Assembly: GCF_014323725.1 (NCBI RefSeq)
Contig: NZ_JABVED010000014.1
Coordinates: forward strand, 1-64,000
DNA length: 64,000 nucleotides
Direction: 5' to 3'
Source of the DNA: Actinokineospora xionganensis
GTDB lineage: Bacteria > Actinomycetota > Actinomycetes > Mycobacteriales > Pseudonocardiaceae
Shown piece by piece: positions 8,086 through 37,283 of the stretch (position 1 is its first letter; the number at the start of each line of letters is the position of its first letter). The notes below the pieces were generated by a model. The model searched no databases. It worked only from the letters and a program-made list of their open reading frames with translations, and was not told where the DNA came from. A program made the position numbers and the translations under genes.

Positions 8086-8946
8086 TCAGGTGCGTCGGTA
8101 ACCGCTCGACGGCGGCATCGGCGCACCGGCGGGCGGAATCGGTGTGGTCGGCGCACTCGGATCCACGGCGCCCGCGGGGACATGGCTCGCGGGCCTGGAC
8201 CCCATCTGGCTCGTTTCCGTGGTGGCGCCGTGTCGCGCCGTTTCCGGGGCGCCCTGTCGCGGCGCGGTGGCCGCGGCCTCGTCGCGCATCTTCGGGATCT
8301 CCTGCTCCGCGCGGTTCAGCCAGCCGTCCCAGCGGTTCTGCATCGGCTTGATGAGACCACCGCCGACGCCGACGATCAGGATGCCCGCGACGGTCGCGAG
8401 GACTGCCACGAGAACCGGGGTGGTGACCGTGGTGGCCACACCGATCTGGTTCAGCGCGGCGATGATTCCCAGGGCCAGGATGAAGACCGAGGCGATCGTG
8501 CCGAGCAGCCGCCCGTAGGACAGCCCGCCCAGCGTGTTGTTGATCAGGTCCTTGACACCGGTGGCGATCGCGCTGGCCACGACCACGATGATGATCGCCA
8601 CGATGGCCCTCGGCAGCCACGCGACAACGGCGGTCAGCAGGTCGGAGACCGGGTTCGGCCCGAACACGCCGAACGCCATCTGCAGGGCGATCAGCAGGAT
8701 CGCATAGTAGACGATCTTCGCGATGATGTCGGAAGCGTCGTACTTGCCGCGGTCCAGCATGCGTTTGATGCCGCCGCGCTCGACCGCACGATCGAATCCG
8801 ACCTTTTCCAGGCCGAAGTCGACGGCTTTGGCGAGCGCCTTGGCGAGAAGCCAACCGATGAACAGAATGACCAGGAACATCAGCAGCTTCGGCACGAAGG
8901 TGATGATCGACGCCCACGCATCGGATAGGCCTTGGCCGAAGTCCAT
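8086..8946 (-). CDS. CmpX/MscS-related small-conductance channel-like membrane protein
   Basis: 286 residues with four to five membrane helices. The first (FVPKLLMFLVILFIGWLLAK) and the DFGLEKVGFDRAVERGG segment are the 'conserved TM helix' repeat found in CmpX-type and mechanosensitive-channel-related proteins; a second such unit follows the AIVAIIIVVVASAIATG helix. The cytoplasmic tail from about residue 225 is Pro/Ala/Thr-rich and probably disordered. The usual MscS beta domain is absent, so a role in osmotic or envelope stress is only an inference. ATG at 8946 has GGAAGGGAGAA upstream. It is first in an apparent operon with the two hypothetical genes. Confidence 0.8.
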   Translation of the reverse strand: MDFGQGLSDAWASIITFVPKLLMFLVILFIGWLLAKALAKAVDFGLEKVGFDRAVERGGIKRMLDRGKYDASDIIAKIVYYAILLIALQMAFGVFGPNPVSDLLTAVVAWLPRAIVAIIIVVVASAIATGVKDLINNTLGGLSYGRLLGTIASVFILALGIIAALNQIGVATTVTTPVLVAVLATVAGILIVGVGGGLIKPMQNRWDGWLNRAEQEIPKMRDEAAATAPRQGAPETARHGATTETSQMGSRPASHVPAGAVDPSAPTTPIPPAGAPMPPSSGYRRT

Positions 8947-9091
8947 GGCGTTCTCCCTTCCAGCAGGGGTCCGCGACGGTTCGCGGCCGCTGGCCGAGGA
9001 GTTACCCACATCTTCGCTCGCTACACATCCGCACTGGTGAGGTCGCCCGGCTACCCCCGCGTTGCCTACCGTTGACCTGGGAGGACTCGCG

Positions 9092-9394
9092 ATGACCTAT
9101 CTCGACGTGTTCCGGCTGGCCAAGGACACGCTCAGCGCGCGGACCGTCTACACCGATCCCTGCGAACGCGACGGGGTCACCGTCATCGCCGCGGCCACCA
9201 TCCACGGCGGCGGTGGCGGCGGGAGCGGCACCGAACTGATCACCGAGGGGGCGGGCTTCGGCGTCTGCGCCCGGCCCGCGGGGGCCTTCGTCATCCGCGG
9301 GTCGTCGGTTCGTTGGCGGCCGGCGATCGATGTCAACCGGCTCATCGGCACCATCGGTGCGGTGGTCATCGCCGTCCTCATCACCCGGCGGTGA
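9092..9394 (+). CDS. GerW/YtfJ-family protein
   Basis: 100 residues. It carries the family pattern: an N-terminal helix, a Gly-run (HGGGGGGSG) in the middle, GVCARPAGAFVIRGSSVRW, then a final WRPAIDVNRLIG and a short hydrophobic C-terminal helix. Bacillus YtfJ/GerW is needed for spore germination; in actinomycetes many paralogues exist and their role is unknown. GGGAGGA lies eight bases before the ATG. The gene ends three bases from the convergent pirin gene. Confidence 0.8.
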   Translation: MTYLDVFRLAKDTLSARTVYTDPCERDGVTVIAAATIHGGGGGGSGTELITEGAGFGVCARPAGAFVIRGSSVRWRPAIDVNRLIGTIGAVVIAVLITRR

Positions 9395-9397
9395 GGG

Positions 9398-10363
9398 TCA
9401 GCCGCGCGACCTCAGCCGGATGTTGGGCAGGACCGGCGCGGGCAGCGTCTCGGCCCACTGCTCGGGGAACTCGCCGTAGCGGCCGGACTCCACGCCGGAG
9501 CGGGCCCGCTGCCACTGCTCGCGGAAAGTGACGATCTCGTCGTGCGAGCGGGCGATGAAGTTCCACCACATGACGATCCGCTCCCCCAGCGGTTCGCCGC
9601 CGAGGACGAGCACCCGCGCCGGTTCGTCGCCCGCTTCGAGGGTGAGTGACGTCGACCCCGTCGGCTGGTAGACCAGCTTCCCGGCGCTCGCGGTGACGCC
9701 CGCGGCATGGACCTCGCCGGTGTCGACGAGCACGCCGTGCTCGAAACCGGCTTCCACGTCCAGGCGCAGGACCTGGCCCGGGCGCAGGGTGATCTCGGCG
9801 CCCAGCAGCGGCGTGTGGGTCGCCACCGGCGACGTGTGTCCGAGCAGGGTCCCGAGGAACACCACGACGCGCGCGCCGTCGTGGGCGTGCACGGGCGGCG
9901 CGTAGTGCTCGAAGGCCGGGTCGACGAACCGGTCGCGATCCGGCAGCGCGATCCACAGCTGCGCGCCATGCAGCACCGAGGTCCCCGGCAGCGAGTGCTC
10001 GGAGTGCGCGATCCCCGAGCCCGCCGTCATCAGGTTGATCTCGCCCGGGCGGACGACCGCGTGCGCCCCGGTGGTGTCGCGGTGCTCGACCTCGCCGCTG
10101 AACAGCCAGGACACGGTCTGCAGCCCGGTGTGCGGGTGGCCCGGCACGGCCATGCCGCCGGTGGCGGAGACGTCGTCCGGGCCGTAGTGGTCGACGAAGC
10201 ACCAGGCGCCGATCAGCGACTGCTCACGCTGCGGCAGCGTCCGGCGCACCATCATCGACCGGGGACCGCCCAGCGGGACCTCGCGCCCGTCGAGCAGTTT
10301 GCCCGCGGGCGCTGTGTCGGCCGAGCAGACGAGCTCGGCAGGCGCCTGCTCCAGGTTGCTCAT
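9398..10363 (-). CDS. Pirin family protein
   Basis: 321 residues with both cupin barrels of the pirin family. The N-terminal barrel has the metal-site signatures HPHTGLQTVSW (two His) and EINLMTAGSGIAHSE (Glu and His), which in pirins bind iron; the C-terminal barrel contains the LLGAEITLRPGQ and PTGSTSLTLEAG strands. Bacterial pirins have been linked to quercetinase activity or redox-dependent regulation; the substrate here is unknown. The ATG at 10363 has a weak GGGAG about 12 bases upstream. Convergent with the GerW gene. Confidence 0.9.
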   Translation of the reverse strand: MSNLEQAPAELVCSADTAPAGKLLDGREVPLGGPRSMMVRRTLPQREQSLIGAWCFVDHYGPDDVSATGGMAVPGHPHTGLQTVSWLFSGEVEHRDTTGAHAVVRPGEINLMTAGSGIAHSEHSLPGTSVLHGAQLWIALPDRDRFVDPAFEHYAPPVHAHDGARVVVFLGTLLGHTSPVATHTPLLGAEITLRPGQVLRLDVEAGFEHGVLVDTGEVHAAGVTASAGKLVYQPTGSTSLTLEAGDEPARVLVLGGEPLGERIVMWWNFIARSHDEIVTFREQWQRARSGVESGRYGEFPEQWAETLPAPVLPNIRLRSRG

Positions 10364-31289: not shown

Positions 31290-32516
31290 TCAGAAGGTCG
31301 CCACGTTCAGCAGCTTCTCCTTGATGCCATCCGGGTCCTGGGCAGGCCAGATCCAGTCCGTCATGCCCGCCGACTGGAGGGCGGACTTCACCGAACCGGG
31401 TGAGGCCGAGGGGTTCGTCGCCTTGTACAGGGCCGCGCCGCCTGCCACGTGCGGGCTCGCCATCGACGTGCCCGAGATCGTGCTGTAGCCACCGTCCTTC
31501 CAGGTGGAGTTGATGCACACGCCCGGCGCGATCAGGTCGACGTCGGCGCCGAAGTTGGAGAAGTTGGCCAGCGTGTCGTCCTCGTCGGAGCGGCACGTCG
31601 ACCCGGCGAGGCCGCCGGACTTGCCGTCGAAGTCGGCGAGCGCGCTGACGGTGATCACTTCGTCGTAGGCGGCGGGCACGAAGCCCTTCGCGTCGACGTA
31701 GCTGTTGCCCGCGGCCACCACGTAGGTGACGCCGGCCGCGACGGAGGCGCAGATCGCCTTGTGCATCGCGTCGTTGTTGCTGTTGCCGCAGTTGCCGTCG
31801 TCGGAGCCGCTACCGCCGAGGCTCATGTTGGCGATCTCGATCTTGTCGGCGTTCGCGGTCACGTAGTCGATCCCGCAGACGACCGCCGACCAGCTTCCCG
31901 AGCCGCGGTTGTCGAGCACCCGCACCGGCCAGACCCGCGCGCCGGGAGCCATGCCGACCACTCCCGAGGAGTTGTCGAGCGCGCCGACCGTGCCCGCGAC
32001 GTGCGTGCCGTGCCCGTTGCCGTCGTCGGCGCTCTTTCCCGTGGAGCAGTTCTTGGCGCCCGCGGTGTGCACGTTGAGGTCCGGGTGATCGAGATCGATA
32101 CCGGTGTCGATGATCGCCACATCGACGTTCACCCTTGTGTCCGCGCCGTCGATCGCGGCTGTCGCGCTTTTCTCGGCGTCGGCTCGGTCGATTCCGGTGG
32201 GCATTGTCTGCGCCGTGGTGTGGACCATTCCGTCACGCTGAACGAAACTCACCCGACCATCGCGAGTCAGTGCTTCGACGGCCCTCTCGCTCAATTGAGC
32301 GGAATATCCGCGTAACGCATGGGAATACACGTGTCCCACGGCCGCGCCGTGGGACTCCGCGTGCTCGCGGGCGACGTCGCGGGCGTTCGCCGTGTCGGCC
32401 AGCACCACGATGTAGTTGTCGATCGCTTGCTGGGAGGAGGTTTCCGCGGTCGCGACGGTCGTCGAGACCGCCGCGAGTGCGAGTGCGATGAGAGCCGTGC
32501 CGTAGGTCTTACGCAT
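31290..32516 (-). CDS. Secreted subtilisin-like serine protease (S8 family)
   Basis: 408 residues: signal peptide 1-24 (ALIALALAAVSTTVATA), an inhibitor I9 propeptide to about 107 (NYIVVLADTANARDVA...), then the peptidase domain. The catalytic triad is Asp137 (AIIDTGID), His169 (GNGHGTH) and Ser351 (GTSMASPHVAGG), with oxyanion Asn271 in AAGNS. Cys pairs suggest disulfides as in proteinase K-like enzymes. AAAGGG lies five bases before the ATG at 32516. It is an extracellular degradative enzyme with its own promoter region upstream (AT-rich 32640-32740). Confidence 0.95.
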   Translation of the reverse strand: MRKTYGTALIALALAAVSTTVATAETSSQQAIDNYIVVLADTANARDVAREHAESHGAAVGHVYSHALRGYSAQLSERAVEALTRDGRVSFVQRDGMVHTTAQTMPTGIDRADAEKSATAAIDGADTRVNVDVAIIDTGIDLDHPDLNVHTAGAKNCSTGKSADDGNGHGTHVAGTVGALDNSSGVVGMAPGARVWPVRVLDNRGSGSWSAVVCGIDYVTANADKIEIANMSLGGSGSDDGNCGNSNNDAMHKAICASVAAGVTYVVAAGNSYVDAKGFVPAAYDEVITVSALADFDGKSGGLAGSTCRSDEDDTLANFSNFGADVDLIAPGVCINSTWKDGGYSTISGTSMASPHVAGGAALYKATNPSASPGSVKSALQSAGMTDWIWPAQDPDGIKEKLLNVATF

Positions 32517-32741
32517 CTTGGCCCTTTCTGTGCCACGCCGGGACGGTGTCAGGGGTCCGGCCCGGCGGGGCGTATTCGTTGACGCCCCCACCATAAGCAC
32601 CCAATTGGCCCAGATCATCACTCGTCACTCAAACGGCTCAGCGCCCCCGCCCACTGTCCATTCGGCACTGAAAAGCAAGTGTCGCCGCGATTTTCGATCG
32701 ACGAGATATTCCCAATAATGCCCATTTTGTGGGAACAACCA

Positions 32742-32779
32742 AAACGCCCCGGAGCCGCGTGGCGGCCTCCGGGGCGTTT
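32742..32779. terminator. Terminator hairpin downstream of the FKBP gene
   Basis: A 13-bp stem (AAACGCCCCGGAG / CTCCGGGGCGTTT) with a 12-base loop, ending in T/A tracts on both strands, lies 18 bases beyond the FKBP stop codon. Confidence 0.85.
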
Positions 32780-32796
32780 CGACTGTTCCAGGTGGG

Positions 32797-33384
32797 TCAG
32801 GTGACCTGGACCGCGTCGATCACGAAGACGAGGGTCTCGTTCGCGGCGATGCCGTTGCCGCCCTGGCCGTAGCCCTTGTCCGGGGGAACCACCAGGAGCC
32901 TGCGGCCACCCTGCTTGATGCCGACCAGGCCCTCGTTCCAGCCGTCGATGACCGAGGCCTCGCCGACGCCCTGGAGCGGGAAGGGCTGGTTGCGCTTCCA
33001 GGAGGAGTCCTTCTCGGTCTTGTTCGACCAGGTGACGAGCAGGTAGTGGGTCAGCATGTCGCTGCCCTTCACGACCTCCTTGCCCGTGCCCGGCGTCAAG
33101 TCCTTGACGATGAGCTTCTTGGGCGGCGCGCAGGTGGTGGGGATGGTGATCTCGGGCTTGGAGTTGGCCGCGCCGGTGACCTTGATGTCGTCGGCGGTGC
33201 ACTCGGCGCCGGTGGAGGCGGCCTCGCTGGTCGGTGCGGAGGACTCGCTGGTCTTGGTGGGCTGGGTCGCGCCCGGGGCGCTCGGGCCACTCTGCGGCTG
33301 GGTGGAGGCCTGCTCCGACGGGGCGCAAGCCGTCAGGCCCACCGCCACGGCCGCCGCGATCATGATCTTGCCGACGTTCTGCAT
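32797..33384 (-). CDS. FKBP-type peptidyl-prolyl isomerase, lipoprotein
   Basis: 195 residues. Residues 1-20 are a lipoprotein signal peptide with lipobox LTAC ending at Cys20, then a Ser/Thr/Pro-rich linker to about 64, then an FKBP domain: GTGKEVVKGSDMLTHYLLV, VIDGWNEGLVGIKQGGRR, VVPPDKGYGQGG, LVFVIDAVQV. The FKBP active-site aromatic residues are mostly kept. It probably assists folding of exported proteins on the outer face of the membrane. The ATG has no ribosome site; TAGACT lies eight bases upstream (33393-33398), so the transcript may be leaderless. Confidence 0.92.
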   Translation of the reverse strand: MQNVGKIMIAAAVAVGLTACAPSEQASTQPQSGPSAPGATQPTKTSESSAPTSEAASTGAECTADDIKVTGAANSKPEITIPTTCAPPKKLIVKDLTPGTGKEVVKGSDMLTHYLLVTWSNKTEKDSSWKRNQPFPLQGVGEASVIDGWNEGLVGIKQGGRRLLVVPPDKGYGQGGNGIAANETLVFVIDAVQVT

Positions 33385-33392
33385 GGTCAGCG

Positions 33393-33398
33393 AGTCTA
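33393..33398 (-). promoter_or_regulatory. -10 box (TAGACT) for leaderless FKBP gene
   Basis: On the minus strand TAGACT is eight bases before the ATG at 33384. Confidence 0.5.
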
Positions 33399-33560
33399 GA
33401 AAAGGCCGCCGGACCGGCCGCACCCGGTCCGGCCCAACGTGAATCCTCACCCGAATTTCGCAATCCACCGGCAGGTGATCACGCGTAAAGTGACTGCGCG
33501 CGCCTGATCGGATACTGACCGCGTTCGTCCGTTCGGGTGCGCCCCAAGGAGGTGACCACC

Positions 33561-34565
33561 GTGCCCGCGGATGCCGAAGGCCTCCGCACCCACCCGATCC
33601 AGGAGCTCTTCTGGACCCGAACGGGCCTGTTGCTCCTGATCCTGCTCGTGGTGTCGGGAACGTCGATGTGGACTTCGAGCGGTCTCGACCCGGGCACGGC
33701 CAAGAATCTACTCGCCGCGCTCGGCACCGGGACCATGGTGTCCGCCGTCGTCGGGTTCGGCCAGACGCTGATCACCGCCACGGCCGCCCAGCGGGCGATG
33801 GTGACGCCGGTGATCGAGGAGAGCAGGCGCGCGCTCCGCGAGTTGTCGGCGGAGTACCGGGCCCTCAACCAGGAGTTCTTCCCCACCCACGTCTTCGAGG
33901 CCACGACCGACCCCGACCCGGCGTTCAACGCGCTGATGATGCGCGACCTCAAGGACACCAGGCAGTTCTGCTTCCGCGGCTTCTCCGGCCGCCACGCCGC
34001 GGTGCGGCTGCTGCACTCCCACGCGGAGTGGGAAGTGCGGGCCGTCGTGGCCGATCCTCGGGAGCGCACGGCGATCAGCGGACGCGCCCGGCACCTGGTG
34101 CGCAACGCCGGGGTCGACGCGGACTACGAGGGCATCCAGGCGACGCTGCACGAGGAGATCCGCATCGGGCTCGTCGGCCTCTATCTGGCCCGTGCCCGGT
34201 GTTCGGTGATCGACGTGACCGTCATCGCCGATCCCCCGCTGGACCGCCTGGAGATGTTCGACGACAGCGTGTGGATCACCCTCTACAGCGACGTCGCCGG
34301 GGTCGCCTCGCTCTACCCGCGGACCCTGCGCTTCTCCGAGGGGTCGTTCATCTACTCGATGGAACGCGCCGATTTCGCGCGGCTGCGCGGCGCGCGGGAC
34401 GCGGGGCGGTTCCAGATCACCCCGGACACCACCCGGGCGGAGTTCCTGGCGCACTTCGAGCGGGTCACCGGCACCGCGCTCTCCCAGAAGCGGTTCCAGG
34501 AGCTGGAAGCGAAGTTCCACGCCTTCCGCCACGACTTCTCCGCCAAAGCCGGACTGGAGGGCTGA
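33561..34565 (+). CDS. Two-helix membrane protein with large cytoplasmic domain, unknown (cassette gene 1)
   Basis: 334 residues from a GTG with a near-perfect AAGGAGGTG Shine-Dalgarno seven bases upstream. Two membrane helices (about 18-36 and 50-72) are joined by a short loop; the remaining 260 residues face the cytoplasm if both ends are inside. The segment 85-105 could be a coiled linker (ESRRALRELSAEYRALNQEF). The domain at 130-275 alternates strands and helices (VRAVVADPRERTA, RCSVIDVTVIADPPLDRLEM, DDSVWITLYSD), loosely like phospholipase D-type or sensor proteins, but no HKD motif is present. Not recognised. It starts a run of three same-strand genes with a cupin and an HD hydrolase. 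Confidence 0.7.
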   Translation: MPADAEGLRTHPIQELFWTRTGLLLLILLVVSGTSMWTSSGLDPGTAKNLLAALGTGTMVSAVVGFGQTLITATAAQRAMVTPVIEESRRALRELSAEYRALNQEFFPTHVFEATTDPDPAFNALMMRDLKDTRQFCFRGFSGRHAAVRLLHSHAEWEVRAVVADPRERTAISGRARHLVRNAGVDADYEGIQATLHEEIRIGLVGLYLARARCSVIDVTVIADPPLDRLEMFDDSVWITLYSDVAGVASLYPRTLRFSEGSFIYSMERADFARLRGARDAGRFQITPDTTRAEFLAHFERVTGTALSQKRFQELEAKFHAFRHDFSAKAGLEG

Positions 34566-34570
34566 TTTCG

Positions 34571-35191
34571 TTGTCGACCCCGCTGTCCGAGCTCGCCGAC
34601 AGGATGCGCACCACACCCGCGCGTCGGTGGTCGGCCATGCACGACTGCTTCGGGTCCTGGGTGGACGGTTCGACGCTGAGATCCGTTCTGCGACAACACC
34701 TTCTGAGCCTGGGACCGGACAAGGCAGCGGCCTTGATCGGCCGCTCCCGGGAGACGACGACCCACTTCGCCTGGTGCCTGCGCGACCGCGAGGCCGAGCA
34801 GTTCACCTTCTGGCTGCACGAGTACAAACCGCAGAGCGACTGGCGGCCCGGCTACGCCGACTCCGTGCACAACCACCGCTACCACTTCTGCACGGTCATC
34901 CTGCGCGGCGGCTACCTCCACGAGCGCTACGCCACCACGATCGACCCCGGCACCGGCCTGATCACCGCGGCCACCCTGCTGCGCCGCACCGAATGCCATG
35001 AGGGCGAGTCCGGGTTCCTGCTCGCCGACGAGTTCCACCGCATCCCGGCCGCGGCCGACCACACGATGACGTTCCTGGTGAAATCCCGCCCCGTGAGCCC
35101 CGCCAGCCTGTCGTTCGACCCGGCCACCAAGATCGGCCACCGCCACGTCCCCGTCGAATCCCGACTTGAGGAGCTGACCAGCAGGATCTAA
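34571..35191 (+). CDS. Cupin-fold protein, unknown (cassette gene 2)
   Basis: 206 residues from a TTG start with GGAGGG nine bases upstream; it begins five bases after the previous stop. The middle forms a cupin-like metal site: HNH at 100-102 in SVHNHRYHFCTVILRGG, HE at 118-119, and His156 in ADEFHRIPA. This pattern recalls cysteine-dioxygenase-like and other iron cupins. An N-terminal helical region (about 1-70) is not recognised. Possible roles are a small-molecule oxygenase or a ligand sensor acting with its neighbours; neither is proven. Confidence 0.65.
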   Translation: MSTPLSELADRMRTTPARRWSAMHDCFGSWVDGSTLRSVLRQHLLSLGPDKAAALIGRSRETTTHFAWCLRDREAEQFTFWLHEYKPQSDWRPGYADSVHNHRYHFCTVILRGGYLHERYATTIDPGTGLITAATLLRRTECHEGESGFLLADEFHRIPAAADHTMTFLVKSRPVSPASLSFDPATKIGHRHVPVESRLEELTSRI

Positions 35192-35242
35192 AACCACCTA
35201 CCATCAGCCCCACCCGATTCCACACCGCTCGGGAGGGGTTCC

Positions 35243-35902
35243 ATGTCCACGCCAGTTCTGCCCACCGAAACCGTCGGCGTCGCCGCGATCGCGCAGGTCA
35301 GCCGCCGGGTCCAAGTGCTCTGCGGGCGCTACGCCGACCGGCTGCCGTTCCACGGCTGGCACCACGTCAGCTTCGTGCGCGACAAGGCCGTCGAGTTCGC
35401 CATGCTCAACGGCTCCGACGTCGCCGTCGTGGAGACGGCCGCGCTGGTCCACGATGTCAACTACCTCGTCCGGCGCAACTCCATCGCCGCGGCGGGAAGC
35501 GCGCTGCGCAGGCGCATCCTGGTCGACGCGGGCATCGGCGCGGCGACGGTGGACTGGATCGACGCGCTCGTCGACGAAGCCGAGATGCGCACCCGGCACC
35601 GCGACATCTCCCTGGAGGCGCAGGCGCTCAGCGACGCCGACACGCTTTTCAAGGCGCTGCCGGTGACCCCGGTCGTGTTGGCGCACAAGTACTTGGCGGA
35701 GAACGGCGTGAGCCTGCGCGAACTCGCCGACAAGATCGTCGGCGAACAGCGAGACGTGCACGACGAGGGTTTCTACTTCTACTCCCCCGCCGCCGCCGCG
35801 AGCTATTCGCGCTGGGCCACGGCCAACCTCGAACTGTGGTCCTGCATCAAGGAGTCGCTGAACGACCCGACTGTCGAACGGTTGCTGAGCGCGGTTGGTT
35901 GA
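35243..35902 (+). CDS. HD-domain phosphohydrolase-like protein (cassette gene 3)
   Basis: 219 residues. The HD metal-binding set is present: His37 and His40/41 in FHGWHHVSFV, His70-Asp71 in ALVHDVNY, and Asp131/Asp133 in SDADTLFKAL. HD proteins of this size hydrolyse nucleotides or other phosphoesters. GGGAGGGG precedes the ATG. It lies 51 bases after the cupin gene on the same strand, so the three genes probably form one transcription unit. The substrate is unknown. Confidence 0.8.
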   Translation: MSTPVLPTETVGVAAIAQVSRRVQVLCGRYADRLPFHGWHHVSFVRDKAVEFAMLNGSDVAVVETAALVHDVNYLVRRNSIAAAGSALRRRILVDAGIGAATVDWIDALVDEAEMRTRHRDISLEAQALSDADTLFKALPVTPVVLAHKYLAENGVSLRELADKIVGEQRDVHDEGFYFYSPAAAASYSRWATANLELWSCIKESLNDPTVERLLSAVG

Positions 35903-35974
35903 TCCGACTGGTTTCAACCGCCGCTGAATGGGAAATCCCTGGTCCGACACGGTTGGTCGGCACGGGGAGTGGCC

Positions 35975-36796
35975 ATGCGGATCCTCGGAGGCCGGTTGCA
36001 GCCGCTGATGGCGGCGGTCGACACGGCATTGAGCGAGCACACGCTGCACGCGATCATCACGGGCGTTCCGAGTCTGCTGCGCCACCCCGTGTGGCCCGCG
36101 ACCGACCCGGATCAGGGCAACGGGCAGGGTGTCGTGCTGGTACCCGGTTTCGGCGTCGGCGAATACAGTCTCGCGCTGACCGCGTCCTGGTTGCGCGCCC
36201 GCGGCTACAAGCCCATCGGCGCTCGGATCGGCTTCAACGTCGGCTGCACCACCACCCTCGTCGACCGGATCGTCCAACGCATGACCGAGCACGCGGACGC
36301 CACCGGCGGACCGATCGTCCTCATCGGACAGAGCCGTGGCGGCTGGCTGGCCCGGCTCGCCACGGTCCGCCGCCCGGAACTGGTGCGTGGCTTGGTGATG
36401 CTGGGAAGTCCCGTGCTCGACCCCCTGGGCGCGAACCCGAGCGTCGTCAAGCTCGCCCGCTCACTGGCCCGGCTCTCCACCTACGGGGTGCCGGGCCTGC
36501 TCGACCAGGACTGTTTCGAGGGCGACTGCTATCGCGAGAGCGCCGAAGCGCTCACCATCCCGCTCCCGTCGAGCATCCCGGCGGTGGCGGTGTACTCGCG
36601 ACTGGACCGGATCGCGCCGTGGAAGCTGTGCCGCGACCCCTACGCCCGGTGCGTCGAGGTCCGCAGCTCCCACACCGGGATGGCCTTCGACCCGGAGGTC
36701 TACACCGCACTCGAACCGCGGCTGCGCCGGTGGGCCCGCAACCACGACACGGCAAAGGCCGTCGTGCCGGAACTCCCGCGGCAGCGGGTCAGCTGA
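35975..36796 (+). CDS. Alpha/beta-hydrolase (esterase/lipase-like)
   Basis: 273 residues. Catalytic elements are visible: oxyanion strand VVLVPGFGVGEYS, nucleophile Ser120 in GQSRGGW, Asp in YSRLDRIAPW and His in RSSHTGMAF. The length and the GFNVGCTTT segment fit a cytoplasmic esterase; the substrate is unknown. ATG at 35975 is favoured (GGGGAG six bases upstream); a GTG lies two codons earlier. The end overlaps the convergent gluconokinase gene by eight bases. Confidence 0.85.
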   Translation: MRILGGRLQPLMAAVDTALSEHTLHAIITGVPSLLRHPVWPATDPDQGNGQGVVLVPGFGVGEYSLALTASWLRARGYKPIGARIGFNVGCTTTLVDRIVQRMTEHADATGGPIVLIGQSRGGWLARLATVRRPELVRGLVMLGSPVLDPLGANPSVVKLARSLARLSTYGVPGLLDQDCFEGDCYRESAEALTIPLPSSIPAVAVYSRLDRIAPWKLCRDPYARCVEVRSSHTGMAFDPEVYTALEPRLRRWARNHDTAKAVVPELPRQRVS

Positions 36797-37283
36797 CAGC
36801 GAGCCGCTCGGTCGCGGCGCGCACGATCGACGCCGGATCCAGCCGCACATCGATCTCCGTGCCCTGCTCGTCGACGCCGAGGTGCTCCAGCGTCGCGAGT
36901 TGCGAGTCGAGGAGGGCCACCGTCGCGAAGTGGCCTTGGCGCCGCCGCAGGCGCTCCGCGAGCACCGCGCGATCGCCGCACAGGTGCAGGAACCACAGCG
37001 GCGTCCCGGCCTCGCGCAGTCGGTCGCGATAGCCGCGGGTGAGCGCCGAACACGCCACCACGCACCCCGTGTCCGCGTGGGCGGCGATCCACTCCGCGAC
37101 CGCCGCCAGCCACGGCTCCCGGTCGGCGTCGCGCAGCGGCATCCCGGCCGCCATCCGGGCGACGTTCGTCGGTGAGTGGAAGACGTCGGCGTCGATCCAC
37201 GGCAGTCTGAGCCGCTCGGCGAGCAGCGCGGCGACGGTGCTCTTCCCCGAACCCGCCACACCCATCACGACGACAACCGGCAC
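36789..37283 (-). CDS. gntK: Gluconokinase
   Basis: 164 residues, the usual size for GntK. Walker A is GVAGSGKST near 8-16, followed by DADVFHSPTNVARMAAGMPL (substrate-binding HSP..N..KM motif in its actinobacterial form) and VACSALTRGYRDRLR. It phosphorylates gluconate to 6-phosphogluconate, feeding the pentose phosphate pathway whose operon lies 3 kb away. GTG start with GGGGGAG upstream. It begins 15 bases after the LigD-like gene, so the two may be co-transcribed. Confidence 0.93.
   Translation of the reverse strand: MPVVVVMGVAGSGKSTVAALLAERLRLPWIDADVFHSPTNVARMAAGMPLRDADREPWLAAVAEWIAAHADTGCVVACSALTRGYRDRLREAGTPLWFLHLCGDRAVLAERLRRRQGHFATVALLDSQLATLEHLGVDEQGTEIDVRLDPASIVRAATERLAVS

Follow-up and report, generated by a model that had tools for sequence, protein, structure and literature searches.

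A cassette of three closely packed genes lies within a 64,000-nucleotide stretch of DNA from Actinokineospora xionganensis (assembly GCF_014323725.1, contig NZ_JABVED010000014.1, positions 1 to 64,000), hereafter called the window. The genes encode a membrane protein (gene 1), a cupin (gene 2) and an HD protein (gene 3), and probably act as one uncharacterised unit in the Pseudonocardiaceae, a family rich in antibiotic producers. As the initial annotation had described, all three share one strand, here the forward one, and are separated by 5 and 51 bases. Each is intact and has a clear ribosome site ahead of it (Table 1). By eye, a Shine-Dalgarno-like GGAGG for gene 2 lies within the 3' end of gene 1, and GGGAGG precedes gene 3. 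The open reading frame listing contains an alternative start for gene 1, GTG at 33537; since the residues added from there (..KEVTT..) are a translation of the Shine-Dalgarno sequence itself, 33561 is the better start.

Table 1. Coordinates of the cassette genes and their upstream elements in the window.
Feature	Position	Strand	Description
Conserved 44-bp cis-element	33481-33524	+	Imperfect palindrome, likely operator/promoter; core match GTAAAGTGACTGCGCGCGCCTGATCGGATAC at 33485-33515; present upstream in 74/85 loci
Shine-Dalgarno of gene 1	33546-33555	+	AAGGAGGTGA; by eye from sequence
Gene 1	33561-34565	+	GTG start, 334 aa; putative ligand-binding membrane protein with two predicted transmembrane helices, a long helix and a phospholipase-D-like domain that lacks the HKD motif
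Gene 2	34571-35191	+	TTG start, 206 aa; cupin, predicted thiol-dioxygenase fold, three-His site H100/H102/H156, without Ser-His-Tyr triad
Gene 3	35243-35902	+	ATG start, 219 aa; HD phosphohydrolase, YpgQ-type mononuclear ligands H41/H70/D71/D133

The co-occurrence of the three genes is strict. In a sample of 61 genomes, comprising that of A. xionganensis (G000) and 60 relatives, homologs of gene 1, the cupin and the HD gene were found in 23, 25 and 25 genomes, respectively, and in 23/23 genomes with gene 1 the other two genes are next in line on the same strand. The identity of gene 1 across these 23 genomes is 38-98%; together with the shared gene order and the residues that are invariant over 71-85 sequences, this shows that the reading frames are not chance ones. 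Elsewhere in the sample, G026 carries the cupin and the HD gene, and its contig starts just 7 bases ahead of the cupin match. The only homolog in G025 is a distant cupin of a different type, and that in G050 is a weak HD match. All 16 Actinokineospora genomes in the sample carry the cassette, at one syntenic chromosomal place. One genome (G033; locus L089:7686-10551) has about 2.9 kb between the cupin and HD genes, with a possible XRE-type helix-turn-helix gene at 8773-9558, recognised by eye.

A second sample came from a pattern-based scan in which the cupin alignment was run against 84,980 named species; the best 80 of 110 relatives were kept. All three genes stand in order in 79 of these 80 loci, and the remaining locus stops at a contig end. 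The carriers belong to Actinokineospora, Amycolatopsis, Actinophytocola, Saccharothrix, Lentzea, Kibdelosporangium, Umezawaea, Labedaea and other Pseudonocardiaceae. The median gap is 5 bp between gene 1 and the cupin (71 loci) and 73 bp between the cupin and the HD gene (69 loci), leaving out loci with a gene missed by the gene finder. Pairwise distances of the three proteins correlate with r of 0.85-0.90, a value not corrected for shared descent.

Within the Pseudonocardiaceae, gene 1, counted alone, is present in 109/292 genomes and in 15/46 genera sampled. Wider searches with gene 1 gave 3/394 genomes at the class level (two Actinokineospora and one weak match with a stop) and 1/296 at the phylum level, which is the source genome itself. 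The HD search gave 3/197 genomes (the source genome and two weak matches in other gene settings), and the cupin search 5/394 (two Actinokineospora and three of a type, A5, discussed below). Conservation beyond the group, which was to have supported the idea of one system, was not borne out: a complete cassette turned up only in Pseudonocardiaceae among the searches made, apart from two records with doubtful labels. These are labelled Rhodococcus rhodnii (L145) and Nocardia sp. (L169); their flanking gene families are like those of Kibdelosporangium and Lentzea, from which it follows that both are probably mislabelled.

The surroundings of the cassette were compared by a home-made gene finder and clustering, within the stretches around each of 85 loci (the 80 named loci, 4 further ones and the window, with one locus entered twice, as L088 and L125). 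The cassette occurs in at least five different surroundings: a region with FKBP, ctaB and transketolase genes, an Amycolatopsis region, L112/L160, L084 and L089. Pairwise, these have at most two gene families in common. The direct neighbours differ at L119 and at L087/L136/L163, yet these loci have nine and seven gene families, respectively, in common with the FKBP region, of which they are probably rearranged forms. In the window, the genes around the cassette are core genes, named by eye: FKBP-type isomerase, quinone reductase, ctaA, ctaB, transketolase and suf genes. A lipase gene downstream (35975-36796) was considered as a fourth member. Its family (F34) adjoins the operon in just one other of the 28 loci compared (n = 2), and the gene was therefore placed outside the unit.

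Most of the loci also have a 44-bp element upstream of gene 1. Its consensus, GCGCGTAvAGTRACTCCCCGCRCTCGAWCRGAYAC(n)5GCAT, is found in 74/85 loci (58 distinct sequences) and in three surroundings. A matrix built from the FKBP-region loci only recognises the element in 26/26 loci of the Amycolatopsis type, 3/3 of the L136 type and 2/2 of the L112 type, with scores of 31.9-57.4, compared with a maximum of -1.4 in 425 shuffles. The element thus travels with the cassette. The full matrix had no match in 256 upstream regions of seven other gene families. Complementarity on the axis of the element is 51%, as against 10-35% on nine neighbouring axes; covariation of columns 7 and 36 (mutual information 0.304, shuffle maximum 0.318) is not above the highest shuffle. 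In raw upstream identity, Saccharothrix/Lentzea and Amycolatopsis agree at 32.2 of 44 positions (shuffled 22.3, maximum 25). This measure is a weaker sign for Actinokineospora, where the best 44-base identity with Saccharothrix/Lentzea averages 27.1 before gene 1 and 25.4-26.1 before four other genes. The element is likely to be the operator or promoter of the operon.

Six genomes were scanned for the core pattern with up to three mismatches. In five, including the source genome, there is one copy, located at the cassette operon; four of these copies match exactly and one has a single mismatch. G013, the sixth genome, has no copy at this threshold. A reversed-pattern control gave 0-1 match per genome and 4 in all, so chance matches at up to three mismatches are expected. 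A wider regulon was rejected, given that the core was found only at the cassette operon in the genomes scanned (5/6). A riboswitch was likewise rejected: an Rfam scan of 32500-36800 had no match at the gathering score, and of 4 element sequences that were folded, 3 were no better than shuffles and only that of L114 was better (z -3.65). A GlnR-like site was set aside for its unsuitable spacing. The claim of the initial annotation that the three genes form one system is well supported by their co-occurrence, by a constant order in several surroundings and by a cis-element that is mostly the same.

The metal motifs of both putative enzymes are present in the form first noted, namely H100-N-H102, H117-E118 and H156 in the cupin and H41, H70-D71 and D133 in the HD protein. 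For the latter, a profile search gave YpgQ (5dqv; E 1.2e-8) and other HD hydrolases. YpgQ is a nucleotide pyrophosphohydrolase with the metal ligands H29, H58, D59 and D124 (PMC8177086). These align with H41, H70, D71 and D133 of gene 3, and H25 aligns with H37 (chain and paper numbering are offset by 6). Conservation of the ligands is nearly complete: H41 in 76/83 sequences (7 gaps), H70 and D71 in 81/83 (2 gaps) and D133 in 82/83 (1 gap). The alignment spans only query residues ~36-135, stopping short of the YpgQ pocket residues R136, F140 and H158. HD-domain oxygenases (PhnZ/MIOX/TmpB) and YqeK have a six-ligand motif, H ... HD ... H ... H ... D (PMC8177086). Gene 3 lacks the two additional histidines that dinuclear HD enzymes and HD oxygenases possess; its sole histidine between D71 and D133 is H119, present in 41/83 sequences. 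An HD oxygenase partner for the cupin, as in a PhnY/PhnZ-like pair, was rejected for lack of these histidines, and gene 3 is best called, from its sequence, a mononuclear phosphohydrolase.

The AlphaFold2 model of the cupin has a pLDDT (predicted local distance difference test) of 89.9, and its top matches in both Foldseek and VIA-align are thiol dioxygenases. Mercaptosuccinate dioxygenase (8vni) superposes with a Z score of 14.2 and a root-mean-square deviation of 2.9 over 161 residues, followed by cysteine dioxygenase (CDO; Z ~13), ergothioneine dioxygenase (~11), and plant cysteine oxidases and ADO (~10). Gene 2 is thus predicted from its model to have the CDO-type cupin fold. Residues were counted in 71 sequences, leaving out 14/85 loci in which the gene finder had not called the cupin. 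The three-His metal site is kept, with H100 and H102 in 70/71 (1 gap) and H156 in 71/71. Where CDOs have Ser-His-Tyr, all 71 sequences have T167, L169 and K171, as aligned by spacing and not by superposition; in 18 true CDOs of the relatives, S145 and H147 are present in all and Y149 in 90% or more. The cupin (P0002) reaches 11.8 bits against Pfam CDO_I, for which the cut-off is 23, and at E up to 1 this family matches 6/21 members (best E 0.0034). In hhalign, the cassette cupin and the 18 true CDOs gave a probability of 0.3%. An ordinary cysteine dioxygenase was therefore rejected: the triad is absent, and two ordinary CDO genes are found elsewhere in the source genome. The middle gene is thus not a known housekeeping cupin.

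The nearest kin of the cupin by sequence is alignment A5 (5 sequences), with a probability of 96.8% and E 2.5e-10 over 96 columns. A5 cupins stand beside radical-SAM genes in an uncharacterised recurring cluster (L236, L238, L239 and L092), and L236, L239 and L092 also have, by eye, PfkB-like, NUDIX and small kinase-like genes. No homolog of gene 1 or the HD gene was found in the stretches read beside four of the five A5 cupins, and none is named at the fifth (L092). Three genomes of genus g66 (L231:6921-9501, L232:7554-10028, L233:6793-9353) have a TetR-like regulator, a membrane protein, a gene 2-like cupin and a NUDIX hydrolase. By eye, this membrane protein starts with two hydrophobic stretches and its C-terminal part is cyclase-like; the set is thus a second case of a membrane protein grouped with a cupin and a nucleotide-type hydrolase. 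The g66 cupins are more weakly related to gene 2, and Pfam confirmed the NUDIX protein in L233. Since NUDIX genes stand beside related cupins, coupling to a nucleotide-type hydrolase appears to recur, in small numbers.

Gene 1 encodes a two-helix membrane protein with a large domain, as first proposed, with about 260 residues after the hairpin. Its AlphaFold2 model (pLDDT 81.9) has long helices at 5-40 and 46-106, followed by the domain, and hydropathy peaks lie at ~12-42 and 49-76, with a lesser one at 204-223 within the predicted soluble domain. By Z score, the best matches of the domain were NucT (Z 11.0, 132 residues), TrmB (Z 10.1, 129 residues), Nuc (Z 9.8) and FAM83B (Z 9.4). Foldseek listed TrmBL2 first (E 6.9e-5), then human BJ-TSA-9 and phospholipase D (PLD) enzymes, and the model thus predicts a PLD-like alpha/beta fold. 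Pfam had no match for this protein (P0001) at E 1. The catalytic HxK(x)4D (HKD) motif was found in 0/85 gene 1 proteins, and even HxK in 0/85; in the same 85 sequences, R144, R149, R211, R229, E231, D234, R257, S262 and R269 are invariant. Because the catalytic motif is absent while these residues stay invariant, the modelled domain is probably a binding domain. The membrane sensor of the initial annotation is made plausible by the missing motif together with a fold that also occurs in TrmB, whose structure is titled a sugar-binding regulator.

A second copy of gene 1, 27-31% identical, is present in 9/292 Pseudonocardiaceae genomes. In 8/9 loci the paralog stands directly beside a HAD hydrolase gene, overlapping it in 7, and the same eight have, by likeness, a methyltransferase and a TIR protein of 1.9-2.0 thousand residues nearby (L093, L094, L095 and L254-L258). 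Pfam was run on the HAD protein of L093 and L256 and on all three neighbours of L256, where it gave HAD, Methyltransf_11, and TIR_2 with a NACHT-associated domain and WD40. PADLOC gave weak TIR/SEFIR matches for the TIR protein of a paralog locus. The ninth locus, L253, has no HAD gene within the stretch listed and an integrase-like reading frame nearby, seen by eye. Since HAD genes adjoin the paralogs, the same type of membrane protein recurs with another small phosphohydrolase. The HAD, paralog and TIR operon looks like a conflict system, of which no description was found in the literature searched. In L093, an upstream gene has a weak, below-cut-off match to 2'-5' RNA ligases, and relatives of it occur in L094 and L095.

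We tentatively favour the view that the three genes form a module dedicated to one small molecule: a ligand, probably phosphorylated, would be bound by the membrane domain and formed or removed by the two enzymes. The cassette would work at the inner membrane face, probably from one transcript. Gene 1 would be anchored by its two-helix hairpin, and its cytoplasmic pseudo-PLD domain, with the invariant arginines, would bind an anionic, probably phosphorylated or nucleotide-like metabolite. The cupin may be a metal-dependent enzyme (probably Fe(II)/O2) on a thiol-dioxygenase scaffold, modifying the metabolite or its precursor, and the HD protein would hydrolyse a phosphate or pyrophosphate of the metabolite.

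Several points weigh against this view. The folds of genes 1 and 2 are themselves predictions, with the pLDDT values given above. For gene 1, the query-normalised Foldseek TM-scores of the top PLD-fold rows are low (0.22-0.29), Z scores of 9-11 are only somewhat above those of common arrangements, and the invariant arginines are defined in the sequence alignment and not as positions in the model. The likeness to TrmB is one of fold only, and pseudo-PLD domains can bind proteins too, as in FAM83. We infer co-transcription from the spacing of the genes, and the ligand type, the topology, the direction of each enzyme and the signalling role are likewise inferred. The upstream element is absent or weak in 11/85 loci: L084, L089 (1.4 in the held-out test), L119, L146, L155, L159, L174 and four of the 13 Actinokineospora loci (L102, L108, L109 and L117). 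Finally, the two enzymes could have a purely metabolic function, with gene 1 as their scaffold.

This metabolic reading comes close to the receptor module in likelihood. The cassette would then be a metabolic or damage-control pathway, in which the cupin and then the HD enzyme act on a phosphorylated (perhaps sulfur-containing) metabolite and gene 1 serves for docking, with no signalling. In favour of such a pathway, 16/16 genomes of the genus hold the two enzymes and the membrane protein at a single syntenic place, and the NUDIX hydrolases beside some cupins of related families fit nucleotide or phosphate metabolism. Against this, gene 1 lacks a catalytic motif, yet is conserved as well as the enzymes, and the TIR proteins near its paralogs make up a neighbourhood of the kind in which regulated effectors are typically found. 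A bolder form of the receptor reading is rather unlikely: in a new signalling system specific to the family, the cupin would make and the HD hydrolase destroy a dedicated phosphorylated messenger read by the membrane pseudo-PLD receptor, and the same receptor fold would have been recruited into the conflict operons with TIR proteins, where a HAD phosphatase takes the part of the HD enzyme.

A role in defence is less likely still, though the neighbours of the paralogs point that way. Gene 1 would act as a membrane effector with two helices that is switched on by a nucleotide signal, with the enzymes setting the threshold. The precedent is the two-helix SLATT proteins, for which a role as effectors responding to nucleotides in conflict systems has been predicted (PMC7159879), and the large TIR protein near the paralogs in 8/9 loci would fit. 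However, PADLOC gave no family for P0001-P0004 at E 1, and the cassette is core in the genus, at one place in every genome. Plasmids were searched with the cupin, which had no match, and with gene 1, for which a single distant relative lacking the partner genes came up; phages, searched with gene 1 alone, had no match. A mobile or phage origin was rejected on the same absence of gene 1 matches in phages and cupin matches in plasmids. The distant relative is carried by Rhodococcus opacus plasmid NZ_CP095404.2 (L230:7905-8951); it is 26.7% identical, and neither a cupin nor an HD gene is annotated within 8 kb of it.

An oxygen or thiol sensor, with gene 1 reading what the cupin yields by oxidising a protein cysteine or a low-molecular thiol, is the least probable reading: the closest folds include plant cysteine oxidases and ADO, and Cys107, five residues past the second metal histidine, is kept in 67/70 sequences with a residue there (3 Ser), at the spacing of Cys93 in CDO, but Ser-His-Tyr is replaced by Thr167, Leu169 and Lys171 (by spacing), the profile comparison with true CDOs gave only 0.3% probability, and the HD enzyme is left unexplained.

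None of the three proteins is above the cut-off in Pfam or NCBIfam. The view that the combination is without described precedent stands for the literature searched, which lacked most subscription journals. In the main text of the conflict-system paper (PMC7159879), the words cupin, PLD, phospholipase D and HD domain are all absent. Strict co-occurrence, a control element of its own and predicted active sites make the operon open to direct testing. If gene 1 is a ligand receptor, it would represent a new membrane sensor family that also occurs in the TIR-protein operons, and PLD domains without catalytic activity would be seen to have a use in bacterial membranes.

Parts of the cassette resemble known systems. 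Gene 3 shares with YpgQ all four metal ligands and H25 (as H37), and differs in its operon partners. Gene 2 has the predicted overall fold and the H-x-H ... H site of the thiol dioxygenases (CDO, 3MDO and mercaptosuccinate dioxygenase), whereas it falls under the CDO_I cut-off, lacks the triad and has a very low hhalign probability against the true CDOs. The A5 cupins are its sequence homologs by profile comparison and have the same HNHR motif; in contrast to it, they belong to a different operon, and they too are without a Pfam family. Gene 1 is like NucT, TrmB and the DUF1669 domain of FAM83B in the predicted fold of residues 105-305. Unlike NucT, it lacks the HKD motif, and unlike all three it is anchored in the membrane by two predicted helices and is without a Pfam match. 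The TIR-protein operon is similar to the cassette in having a paralogous two-helix pseudo-PLD protein that adjoins a small phosphohydrolase, while it has HAD instead of HD, lacks the cupin and adds the large TIR protein.

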